From Opitutia bacterium ISCC 52 (GTDB lineage: Bacteria; Verrucomicrobiota; Verrucomicrobiia; Opitutales; UBA2995), in NCBI GenBank assembly GCA_014529675.2, contig CP076040.1:1426001-1490000 (forward strand): DNA of 64,000 nucleotides. The letters run 5' to 3'. Below are positions 7,524-49,966 of the stretch, piece by piece. Within the stretch, counting starts at the first letter, position 1. Each line of letters begins with the position of its first letter. Both the position numbers and the translations under genes were made by a program. A model generated the notes under the pieces. The model did no database searches. It worked only from the letters and a program-made list of their open reading frames with translations, and was not told the DNA's origin.

Positions 7524-7677
7524 AAAATTGTCTGTTGGGAGAACGATCCGAAACCTGCAAGGTAGTCGCAATTCTAATCTACCTGAAAGTGTCACATTCC
7601 CTTTGCTTTACTAAAAAGCGAGAGTTGGTATGGTCATCAGTGCTTCAATCCTCCTATAACATTAGTCGACTTACTTT

Positions 7678-8505
7678 ATGGATTTTCAAGTATATCAATC
7701 TTACTGGGGAATGACCGACTTGCCTTATATGGGCGAAGAATGGTCTAGGGAGGACAAGGTCGCTCAAATTGCGGAAGCAGATTTCGATGGAATCGAATTT
7801 ATGATGGAGGAGCCGGAGCATTTAAAGGTCATGATTCCTCTTACGGACAAGTTTGATCTCAAACGGGCAAACATCGTGTTTCCTTGGAGTTCTGAGGATT
7901 TCAAGGAGGATGTAAAGGCGGCCCAGGAGGGTGGGGCTACGCACATCAATCTCCAGCCTATGCCTATGCCACGCACGGTTGCAGAATGCGTGGATTATGT
8001 TCGGGAGTGTATCGATATTGCGGGTGAGGCAGGCATACCTCTCTTTTTCGAAACGCATAGGGATCGGATGACCACCGATATGTATTTCACATTGGATCTG
8101 ATCGAAGCGGTTCCAGAAATGAAACTGTGTGGAGATCTGTCACATTTCCTAGTCGGTCGTGAGTTTGCGGGTCCACCCATTTCTGCACAGAATCAAGCTT
8201 ACATGACTCAGATTGTGGAGCGCTGTGGACTCTTTCATGGCCGAGTGGCTTCTCGTGAACAGGCACAGGTGCCGATCTCATTTCCGCATAATCAAATTTG
8301 GGTCGACCTCTTTGCCGTTTGGTGGGAGCAGGGATTTAAAAACTTTAAAGCCACCGCACCTGAAGATGCCACGTTGACCTTTGTTGTCGAATTAGGACCT
8401 GCCGAATACGCCATGCAAGGTGCCGACGGCAATGAACTATCTGATCGTTGGGTAGAAGCAAAAAGGATTAAAGGTTTGGTCCGTGAAATTTGGGAACATT
8501 GTTAG
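7678..8505 (+). CDS. Sugar phosphate isomerase/epimerase (xylose isomerase-like TIM barrel)
   Basis: A 275-residue AP-endonuclease-2/xylose-isomerase-like barrel without signal peptide. Metal-site residues are visible as Glu125 and His127 (FFETHRDR), Asp153 and His156 (CGDLSHF), a later LFHGR histidine, and a VVELGP glutamate near residue 241. Such proteins isomerise or epimerise ketoses in cytosolic sugar catabolism; the exact sugar is unknown. It is followed directly (ATG right after TAG) by the stump of an NAD-dependent epimerase, so it was once part of an operon. Confidence 0.8.
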   Translation: MDFQVYQSYWGMTDLPYMGEEWSREDKVAQIAEADFDGIEFMMEEPEHLKVMIPLTDKFDLKRANIVFPWSSEDFKEDVKAAQEGGATHINLQPMPMPRTVAECVDYVRECIDIAGEAGIPLFFETHRDRMTTDMYFTLDLIEAVPEMKLCGDLSHFLVGREFAGPPISAQNQAYMTQIVERCGLFHGRVASREQAQVPISFPHNQIWVDLFAVWWEQGFKNFKATAPEDATLTFVVELGPAEYAMQGADGNELSDRWVEAKRIKGLVREIWEHC

Positions 8506-8682
8506 ATGTCGGATAAATTACGTCTGGGTATTACGGGTTCCGATGGAAATGTTGGAACTACACTTAGGGCGGGTCTTTCAGAAGACTATGATTTGCAGCT
8601 CAATACTCAGAATGCTGTCGATTATGAATCGACCAGGGCAGCCCCGAAAGCCAAGCCCAAGGATATTCCCAATGTCATGTAA
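8506..8682 (+). pseudogene. N-terminal stump of an NAD-dependent epimerase/dehydratase
   Basis: The ATG follows the isomerase stop with no gap. The first 30 or so residues (LRLGITGSDGNVGTTLRAGL) are a typical extended-SDR Rossmann start with GxxGxxG spacing. After about residue 40 the family pattern ends and a lysine/proline-rich tail runs to a TAA at 8680-8682. The remaining 200 or more residues are missing. The end overlaps the 3' end of a minus-strand gene (8622-8954) that may also be shortened, so two genes meet at a breakpoint near 8620-8640. Confidence 0.75.
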
Positions 8683-8954
8683 TATCCTTGAGGGATCAGT
8701 GAGAGACTTGCTCGTAAGAACTTAAGTAGTTGTTCCGTCCTTTGTTTTACCTCTCTAAAGGATGGAACAGGCTTAATATTCAAGTTGAGCTCATCGAGTT
8801 TCTCTTCGATGGAATGCCGTTCTTCTCCCGTAAGATTTCTTTCGTCCAAGCTGTTTAATATGCCTAGAATTCTATGATAGTATTTCTTCTCTGATCGTTT
8901 GGTGGATTGCTCCAGGAGTTCTTCGAAGATTTGCGATGATTGGTATATTTTCAT
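8622..8954 (-). CDS. Small protein with coiled-coil-like helices and a C-terminal membrane segment
   Basis: A 110-residue protein of unknown function. Residues 1-85 are charged and helical (KRSEKKYYHRILG, LTGEERHSIEEKLDEL); residues 89-110 form a glycine-rich hydrophobic stretch (YYMTLGISLGLAFGAALV) that ends abruptly at VDS. It resembles small Bacteroidota/PVC membrane-anchored proteins of about 150 residues that continue with a second glycine-rich helix (from memory, not searched), so this copy may be truncated at the breakpoint with the epimerase stump. Its upstream region carries the same two-block promoter motif as the TonB-like gene at 9111-9584. Confidence 0.55.
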   Translation of the reverse strand: MKIYQSSQIFEELLEQSTKRSEKKYYHRILGILNSLDERNLTGEERHSIEEKLDELNLNIKPVPSFREVKQRTEQLLKFLRASLSLIPQGYYMTLGISLGLAFGAALVDS

Positions 8955-8969
8955 GATGTTTTTGCCTAG

Positions 8970-9001
8970 TTAGTGCCAAAAATCAGAATTTATTACACCC
9001 T
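8970..9001 (-). promoter_or_regulatory. Putative ECF-type promoter, copy 1
   Basis: Read on the minus strand, AGGGTGTAATA (9001-8991) is followed after exactly 15 bases by CACTAA (8975-8970), upstream of the ATG at 8954. The same two blocks with the same spacing precede the gene at 9584. A conserved -35-like and -10-like pair suggests a shared alternative sigma factor. The start codon lies close to the downstream block, leaving a very short leader, which is a point against a simple reading. Confidence 0.45.
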
Positions 9002-9027
9002 TCACAAAAAAAAGTTCGAAATAGATG

Positions 9028-9065
9028 AAAAAAGACCCGTGAGCTACTGGGTAGCTGCACGGGTC
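9028..9065 (-). terminator. Rho-independent terminator after the TonB-like gene
   Basis: On the minus strand a hairpin has stem GACCCGTG(C)AGCTAC / GTAGCTCACGGGTC with loop CCA, one bulged base, and an immediate run of T (A tract at 9028-9033 on the plus strand). It lies about 45 bases beyond the stop codon at 9111, in the right place and orientation to end that transcript. Confidence 0.85.
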
Positions 9066-9110
9066 AAGTTACAATATCAGTTCAATAAGTCTTAAATTCA
9101 GGCTCAAAAT

Positions 9111-9584
9111 TTAATGGTTTGCTGAGGCAAGGATCGTAGGCTTCGAAAGGGCGATAGCCGCATAGTTCTTGGAATCCTTTGTTTTCTTTACGACTCGAAC
9201 AGGAAGGGAGACCTTCACATCGATTAGGTTTCCGTTTTGATCCTGCGCTGGCTCAAATCGCCAGTGTGGTAAAACTCTATGCATCGCAGCCTCGAGGCTT
9301 CTGAAATCATTCACTTGTGGACTAAACGCCCCTTTGATGATGTCGTAGGGGCGACCAGCGGTTCCAATTCTTAAAATCAGTTCGGCTTCTTGCCCTAAGG
9401 ACCGCCTGCTTATTCGTGGTGAGACTGCTTTCGACACGGTTGGCGTTGAAATTTCTTCTACCTGGAAGGTCGGGAGATCATGGCTTTTCTCAGCGCTGTT
9501 AAGTTTATTTTCATCTGTTGCGAAAACGCTTTGAGAAAATAAAATGGAGGACACGAGGGTGGTTATTAGGATGTGTTTTTTCAT
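9111..9584 (-). CDS. Secreted protein with TonB C-terminal-like domain
   Basis: A 157-residue protein with a signal peptide (MKKHILITTLVSSILFSQSVFA). The rest matches the pattern of a TonB C-terminal or energy-transducer-like domain: SLGQEAELILRIGTAGRPYDI, then HWRFEPAQDQNGNLIDVKVSLPVRV, the typical WxFxPxxxxGxxVxxxxxxPVxF layout. It lacks the usual membrane anchor and proline-rich span, so it is probably a soluble periplasmic protein rather than a working TonB. It is a single-gene transcript with its own terminator and a candidate ECF-type promoter. Confidence 0.65.
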   Translation of the reverse strand: MKKHILITTLVSSILFSQSVFATDENKLNSAEKSHDLPTFQVEEISTPTVSKAVSPRISRRSLGQEAELILRIGTAGRPYDIIKGAFSPQVNDFRSLEAAMHRVLPHWRFEPAQDQNGNLIDVKVSLPVRVVKKTKDSKNYAAIALSKPTILASANH

Positions 9585-9658
9585 GTTTTTAATTCCGTTA
9601 TTTTTGAGTAACCCGAGAGACTTACGACGAGTCGCAAAAATCTTTCGGTTTTTTCAAA

Positions 9659-9690
9659 TTAGTGGCGGAATTCTGGAAATATTACACCCT
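9659..9690 (-). promoter_or_regulatory. Putative ECF-type promoter, copy 2
   Basis: On the minus strand AGGGTGTAATA (9690-9680), 15 bases, then CACTAA (9664-9659), about 75 bases before the ATG at 9584. The blocks and spacing are identical to those upstream of the gene at 8954, while the intervening bases differ, as expected for a promoter. Confidence 0.5.
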
Positions 9691-9715
9691 AACGAGGATT
9701 TTTTTAAGATCGAGG

Positions 9716-10819
9716 CTATCGAGACCTCAGAGCTTTACGGATAATCGGTTCGAATACATCTGCCTGACGCATGAAACCTAAGTCGTTCGGGTGGGAGGCA
9801 TCTGTGGCACCTTCGCCATCCAGTCCCAGGAGCTTATCGCCCGGGATATAAAATAGCTTTTTCACGCCCTCTTTTTTAAGCGCTTTATAAGCTCGCTTAA
9901 GTGCCTCATGATTTTTGTCGTGATGCATATTTCTCGCATGAAGTATCCAGGAGTTTGTGTTCCTGCGGTCTTCAACTAGAATGATGGGAGTATCGGGACG
10001 TGCTTCTCTAAGCTGTTTTACGAGAGGTATACAACGTTCATCGATCTGCTCTGCCCTGAGATTTGGATTACAGTCGATTACATAAACGGCTGGATCGATC
10101 CGGGTTAGGTTAGCTCCGACTTCTGCTTCCATGCGTCCATTACCAGAAAAACCAAGATTTATGACCGGACGATCAAAGCGTCGGCCAAGGATAGCCGTGT
10201 GAACCATGCCCGGGCGAGAGGCGCAGGCGCCGTGGGTGATGGATGTGCCGTAAAAGACAATCGGTTTAGCCTTACGCGGTGAAAGGCCGTTAAATAATGC
10301 TCCTTTAGGGACGCCTATTTTTAGGCTATTTACTCCATTGAGCAGGGGGAGATAAGCCGCAAACTCACGCTTATCGGGCGACATCTCTTTTATGATATTA
10401 GTTAGGACATCCTGAGAGTCGGGCATGGTTACTTCTACCCAGCGCCACTTTCCTTTTTTATCCCGGGCATATAGATCGAGCCCGCTCACTCCAGTGGCGG
10501 GCATGTGTGGCATGGCGAGGTCTTCATCCAATAGTGTGTAGTCGACCCAGATTTCAGTAGCGTCGGTTTCGAAGCGAGCCATCATGCCCGTGCTGTCTCG
10601 GCTTAAATCCCAGACTTTCTCACGAACCTCCGATTCGGCAGAGGCGGGTAAGCGATCGAACCAACGAGCACGAGGTTCATTTTCCCATGCACGGCCTTCT
10701 ACGCCCCATTCAGTGACGTCATACCAATCAAGTTCGATTGGGATAGTTTCGCCTATAGGTTGAGCAAAGGAAAGTGAACTGAAAGTTATTACTAGTATTA
10801 TAATGAAAATGAATCGCAT
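9716..10819 (-). CDS. Secreted SGNH/GDSL hydrolase with N-terminal GxDLY domain
   Basis: A 367-residue esterase-like enzyme with a signal peptide (cleavage near SFA-QP, residue 19). The N-terminal beta-sandwich carries the GLDLY signature (113-117) of the GxDLY domain; the SGNH domain starts with FYGTSITHG, nucleophile Ser193, and ends with DASHPND (Asp340, His343). The Gly/Asn oxyanion blocks are INLGFSGNGR and DCNPN. Relatives deacetylate or de-esterify polysaccharides outside the cell, fitting a glycan-degradation region. It lies 15 bases downstream of the double-propeller protein and is probably co-transcribed with it. Confidence 0.85.
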   Translation of the reverse strand: MRFIFIIILVITFSSLSFAQPIGETIPIELDWYDVTEWGVEGRAWENEPRARWFDRLPASAESEVREKVWDLSRDSTGMMARFETDATEIWVDYTLLDEDLAMPHMPATGVSGLDLYARDKKGKWRWVEVTMPDSQDVLTNIIKEMSPDKREFAAYLPLLNGVNSLKIGVPKGALFNGLSPRKAKPIVFYGTSITHGACASRPGMVHTAILGRRFDRPVINLGFSGNGRMEAEVGANLTRIDPAVYVIDCNPNLRAEQIDERCIPLVKQLREARPDTPIILVEDRRNTNSWILHARNMHHDKNHEALKRAYKALKKEGVKKLFYIPGDKLLGLDGEGATDASHPNDLGFMRQADVFEPIIRKALRSR

Positions 10820-49898: not shown

Positions 49899-49966
49899 TC
49901 GACAGCAAGCTACCTCCTACACACGAAGTTCGAAACTCAATTGTAGGAGGTAGCTTGCGGCCGAAT
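49899..49966. repeat. REP-like inverted pair, family A
   Basis: GACAGCAAGCTACCTCCTAC and TGTAGGAGGTAGCTTGCGGC enclose about 20 bases. Same family as 38489-38556 and 40566-40634. It lies between the SDR and the lyase gene. Confidence 0.8.

Follow-up and report, generated by a model that had tools for sequence, protein, structure and literature searches.

In the window, by which we mean the whole 64,000-nucleotide stretch of Opitutia bacterium ISCC 52 DNA that was analyzed, two small neighboring genes on the minus strand are each preceded by the same pair of sequence blocks. An exact pattern match, AGGGTGTAATA followed by 15 bases and CACTAA, occurs at positions 8970-9001 and again at 9659-9690, both on the minus strand. 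The upstream block, a putative -35 element, occupies 8991-9001 in the first copy and 9680-9690 in the second, and CACTAA, the putative -10 element, lies at 8970-8975 and 9659-9664, respectively. A preliminary description of this DNA had reported identical motifs at differing distances from the start codon, and both observations hold: 15 nucleotides separate the motif from the ATG of a 110-amino-acid open reading frame (ATG at 8954), versus 74 nucleotides for a TonB-like gene (ATG at 9584). The intervening bases had been called unrelated, and although the two spacers do differ, they are identical at 7 of 15 positions.

The gene behind the second copy (9111-9584, minus strand) encodes a protein of 157 amino acids with an N-terminal hydrophobic segment. 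Its label as a TonB-C-terminal-like protein comes from a family profile (A1) that matches TonB C-terminal structures with a best E value of 5.7e-5. The window protein alone gave no significant Pfam match, and two homologs scored 17.2 and 23.1 bits against TonB_C, both below the curated cut-off of 24.6. Relatives were found in seven of 53 genomes (own included) at E <= 0.001. The leader of this gene (9585-9658, minus strand) has a predicted fold of -16.4 kcal/mol (z -2.4). On the 3' side of the gene, at 9029-9065 on the minus strand, a T run comes after a hairpin with a folding energy of -23.4 kcal/mol (z -7.8), making a probable intrinsic terminator that a simple consensus terminator scan did not report. 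Because this terminator lies between the TonB-like gene and the first motif copy, that copy probably begins its own transcription unit, and the two sites probably serve separate units.

The 110-amino-acid open reading frame behind the first copy (8622-8954, minus strand) appears to be a 3'-truncated relative of a protein encoded in G086, a genome from another family. The relative has two transmembrane-like segments, and the two proteins are about 41-42% identical over residues 1-107 of the window protein. The earlier label of membrane protein suits this relative, but the window frame is a remnant in which no transmembrane-like 19-mer was found at the threshold used. On the plus strand, a 58-residue remnant of a gene resembling SDR/epimerase proteins (8506-8682; the SDR label was assigned by reading the sequence) converges on it, and the counterpart in the closest species, G005, has 250 residues. 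Homology to the G005 SDR protein ends at 8641, and homology of the 110-amino-acid protein to its G086 relative ends at residue 107, which corresponds to 8634. The simplest reading of these end points is that a single deletion with its junction at 8634-8641 cut both converging genes, in which case it also would have removed the second transmembrane-like segment.

Two conserved blocks with a fixed spacing of about 15 bases upstream of a gene are the arrangement found in ECF sigma factor promoters. That the copies are exact, intergenic, and on the same strand, and that the two units they precede seem to have a terminator between them, argues for such promoters. The minus strand of 8400-9900 contains no sigma-70-type consensus site, which points the same way and led us to reject a sigma-70 promoter. 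An RNA element also was considered and rejected, given that the window has no Rfam family match. Against the ECF reading stand the very short 5' leader that it would leave for the 110-amino-acid gene and the blocks themselves, TGTAATA and CACTAA, from which the AAC (-35) and CGT (-10) trinucleotides are absent. This AAC/CGT signature is described in one review (PMC8103513) as an early ECF hallmark, with the definition later restricted to the sigma2/sigma4 architecture.

Rarity of the motif in the genome

Exact coincidences of this kind can arise readily in a long stretch of DNA, and the significance of the pair must be judged with care. When exact pairs of an 11-base and a 6-base block with a gap of 8-24 bases were counted, the 64-kb window yielded 66 redundant pairs, against a simulated mean of 13.3. 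An exact two-block coincidence somewhere in 64 kb is not rare. Same-strand pairs less than 1 kb apart are rare, however, with 0.125 expected per simulated window, and shuffles of the window gave 0.09 matches to the motif at up to three mismatches. The pair of sites by itself is suggestive, and comparison with other genomes decides.

In the single-contig genome of 4,815,747 bases, the two window sites are the sole matches at up to two mismatches. At up to three mismatches there are eight matches (two at zero and six at exactly three), compared with 11 for a reversed control pattern. These counts indicate two real sites with no wider set visible. A genome-wide scan for enrichment upstream of other genes had been proposed as a check on the promoter reading; it was negative at this threshold, which counts against that reading. 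A wide regulon was rejected because none was seen.

A putative sigma operon in another family

Homologs of the 110-amino-acid protein are scarce. Among 53 genomes (own included) it was found in its own genome only, and a search of 372 order-level genomes (own included) produced one homolog elsewhere, the G086 protein (E 1.1e-18, 42% identity, 157 amino acids). Thirteen nucleotides before the ATG of the G086 gene lies TGTAATA-AATCCTGATTTCCGC-CACTAA, in which the CACTAA block and the TGTAATA portion of the -35 block are exactly those of the window sites. The chance of finding these 13 fixed bases within 100 nucleotides is about 1e-6. The 28-bp core shares 24 of 28 bases with each window copy, whereas the 20 bases upstream share 3 and 8. 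The cross-family case comes from the single genome G086, which counts against the promoter reading, as does the absence of the site from other homologous loci described below.

Conservation in G086 extends into the spacer, which matches each window spacer at 11 of 15 positions (P 0.00024 each). Taken with the 7 of 15 positions shared by the window spacers, this agreement indicates that the spacers are related too, so the earlier view of them survives only insofar as they differ. Partial spacer conservation exceeds what a plain sigma site needs and counts against the ECF reading; it could mean that the 28-bp element carries information beyond its two blocks and serves as an operator for some transcription factor, instead of being recognized by a sigma factor. 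We regard an operator as unlikely. No palindrome is apparent by eye in the 28-bp element, the site stands right in front of a start codon in two genomes, and in G086 it heads a run of genes that includes an ECF sigma gene. In addition, the distance between the blocks fits the -35/-10 geometry of ECF promoters.

The gene order in G086, all on the same strand, is the site, the 157-amino-acid gene, an ECF sigma gene beginning 60 nucleotides past its stop codon, and an overlapping gene for a protein of 217 amino acids. The sigma factor (163 amino acids) matches PF04542 with 49.5 bits, PF08281 with 47.4 bits, and TIGR02937 with 88.1 bits, all above cut-off, and consists of the Sigma70_r2 and r4_2 regions only, as is characteristic of ECF sigma factors. 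The 217-amino-acid protein has transmembrane-like segments and matched no Pfam or NCBIfam family, including any anti-sigma family. No significant fold was found in the gap between the 157-amino-acid gene and the sigma gene. The recurrence of the exact motif across families, with an ECF sigma gene as the next gene after the one it precedes, supports the view put forward in the preliminary description that these are ECF-type promoters. By position, the site also heads the same-strand run that contains the sigma gene, as an autoregulated promoter would.

The putative deletion junction in the window sits just before the spot where the sigma gene comes next in G086. The gene behind the first window promoter has been cut just upstream of that position, and the operon looks truncated in the window genome; a sigma gene may have been lost here.

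In G005, the site before the ortholog of the TonB-like gene is kept with one change: the -35 block is intact and the -10 block reads CACTCA. Retention of this site argues for a promoter, while the altered -10 and the truncation of the G005 TonB-like gene count against one, and the 110-amino-acid gene is absent from this species. A hairpin-like repeat (TAGGAGGGGCTTTGTGCCCC...) is present at the truncation point (L025, G005:C250, ~7590-7690). Inverted repeat elements of the form CTACCTCCTACA/TGTAGGAGG recur in the window at 49906-49957 and ~38542 and may be related to it. The motif is absent upstream of the TonB-like homologs in G001 and G002, which counts against the ECF reading. These homologs adjoin TIGR02999/PF07638 ECF sigma genes (L026 4834-5953 in G001, L027 1176-2382 in G002), and the G001 locus also includes a Ser/Thr kinase-like gene. 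A link to ECF sigma factors through these neighbors was considered and dropped because the upstream regions lack the site, and an apparent MKIY start in G002:C296 was discarded as a frame of just 28 codons.

So much truncation raises the concern that the motif is a product of chance or a relic that no longer has a function, the leftover of a locus that was duplicated and then decayed. The damaged 110-amino-acid and SDR genes, the truncated TonB-like gene in G005, and the lack of other genome copies are all compatible with such an origin. Exact conservation of both blocks across families whose proteins are ~42% identical argues for selection over most of this history, however, and makes a relic very improbable, though a recent loss of function in the window genome could have escaped this comparison.

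Candidate sigma factors and a probably truncated operon

Two candidates for the sigma factor that reads these sites emerge from the window genome. A tree built from 23 sigma rows groups the G086 sigma with L048 of the window genome and L081 of genome G010 (support 98/98), which are its closest relatives among the sigmas fetched. Upstream of the L081 and L048 starts are TGTAAGG-N17-CACTGA and TGTAAGA-N17-TACTAA, respectively, or TGTAAG-N18-[CT]ACT[AG]A in common. The supported grouping of factors that carry this related sequence favors ECF promoters in the window, although a spacing two bases longer than that of the window and G086 sites counts against them. The looser pattern TGTAA-N16..22-ACTRA, for which the chance is 0.00035 per 100 nucleotides, was found in one of 18 sigma upstream regions tested in the window genome (L048; the other 17 lack it) and in one of 30 fetched sigma loci (L081). 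The 18 regions derive from 19 Sigma70_r2 matches, one of which was left out because it lies in a 692-amino-acid frame.

L048 (G000:C1:~4645765-4646283) is the one member of the G086 sigma clade in the window genome, and region 2 of its reading frame is interrupted near its beginning by an in-frame stop, which reflects either a pseudogene or a sequence error. This stop weakens the case for an ECF promoter, leaving L048 as a candidate cognate sigma. L048 is followed by genes for a 193-amino-acid membrane protein and two ExbD/TolR proteins (L139 5273-6789, G000:C1 ~4646273-4647789). The regulon visible in the window genome is at most the two window genes, possibly with the stop-bearing sigma gene. 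The small regulon predicted earlier accordingly finds weak support in two genes, one of them truncated, and possibly this third, but none in enrichment elsewhere.

The second candidate is L046 (G000:C1:1796012-1796548), a TIGR02989-like ECF sigma (122.5 bits against a cut-off of 124.55) encoded before PSCyt1/PSCyt2/PSD1 and DUF1501 genes. Its upstream region contains GGTGTAATA-N15-CTATAT, and thus has a 9-base -35 block and an exact 15-base spacing in common with the window sites. TGTAATW-N15-YTATAT is kept upstream of all five genus orthologs found (L046 and four others); a genus scan with this pattern gave six hits, five of them these sigma genes, against two control hits. A T-rich tract lies above the L046 pattern (L046/L129, G000:C1:1796012-1796601). 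GGTGTAATA occurs 34 times in the genome, compared with 23 for the control, and by ORF-based sorting rather than gene prediction only four copies lie between genes and ahead of an ORF on the same strand: the two at the window sites, the one at L046, and one before a 154-amino-acid ORF that has no fitting -10. A genus scan with TGTAATA-N15-CWMTAW gave eight hits in six genomes against five for the control. The window sites account for two of the eight and promoters of L046-type sigma genes for three; of the rest, two (L088 and L090) overlap ORFs and one (L089) precedes a SAM-methyltransferase-like ORF, so labeled by reading the sequence.

The shared -35 block, spacing, and intergenic placement make L046 a serious rival, and it was our first choice as the cognate sigma until the G086 homolog shifted weight to the L048/L081 clade. 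Its -10 element differs, however, with YTATAT rather than CACTAA conserved across five orthologs, and the tree places L046 and the G086 sigma far apart. Moreover, its promoter could be read by the housekeeping sigma instead. We therefore consider it doubtful, if still a reasonable contender, that the window sites are ECF promoters read by L046.

The best reading is that the sites are ECF-type promoters, probably autoregulated in origin. On the sequence comparisons above, it is fairly likely that TGTAATA and CACTAA are the -35 and -10 elements of two ECF-sigma-dependent promoters, one for the 110-amino-acid gene and one for the TonB-like gene, the first of which would have headed an ancestral self-driven operon that now looks truncated. 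The ancestral operon would have resembled that of G086, with a promoter, the 157-amino-acid protein with two transmembrane-like segments, the ECF sigma, and the 217-amino-acid protein as a candidate anti-sigma factor. A sigma of the G086 type would read the promoter heading its own operon. In the window genome, this operon would have been cut at 8634-8641, and the TonB-like gene would have kept the other copy of its promoter. The present reader of both sites might be L048 or a less related ECF sigma.

Promoters of E. coli sigma-E (RpoE) have the form GGAACTT-N15-GTCTAA. When promoter sequence alone is compared, the window motif resembles them in its 15-base gap and in a -10 block that ends in CTAA, but its -35 block is TGTAATA rather than GGAACTT. 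According to PMC8103513, about 55% of ECFs with predictable promoters are autoregulated. The autoregulated operons with membrane anti-sigma factors described there share with the present case a short -35/-10 pair at fixed spacing, a two-domain sigma, and a membrane protein, here that of G086. Unlike them, the motif is TGTAATA/CACTAA rather than AAC/CGT, the first gene in G086 encodes a 157-amino-acid protein without a confident family, and the 217-amino-acid protein has no anti-sigma match. A further parallel involves TIGR02989 ECF sigmas of Rhodopirellula and Verrucomicrobium near PSCyt/PSD1 genes; in R. baltica, PMC2754498 suggests ECF RB10049 as the regulator of the PSD1/PSC2 protein RB10051. 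L046 resembles this group in its place before PSCyt1/PSCyt2/PSD1, and it has the -35 block and spacing of the window. The window -10 element differs, the G086 sigma belongs to another clade, and the window genes lie outside such a cluster. Literature searches found no published work on the window motif, and in one paper that turned up for TGTAATA the string is part of a primer.

The mechanism is ordinary in kind. More speculatively, TGTAATA-N15-CACTAA might be the signature of an undescribed Opitutales-type ECF clade that links a glycine-rich membrane protein with two transmembrane segments and a TonB-like periplasmic protein (plus ExbD/TolR at the L048 locus) in one envelope response, with a tiny regulon being lost gene by gene in the genus and leaving orphan promoters. 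What the analysis provides is a promoter signature that can be tested for an ECF clade, in bacteria on whose sigma factors our literature searches turned up little. It also offers a possible case of a shrinking sigma regulon, in which an exact promoter has been kept across family distance while the neighboring genes have been truncated.
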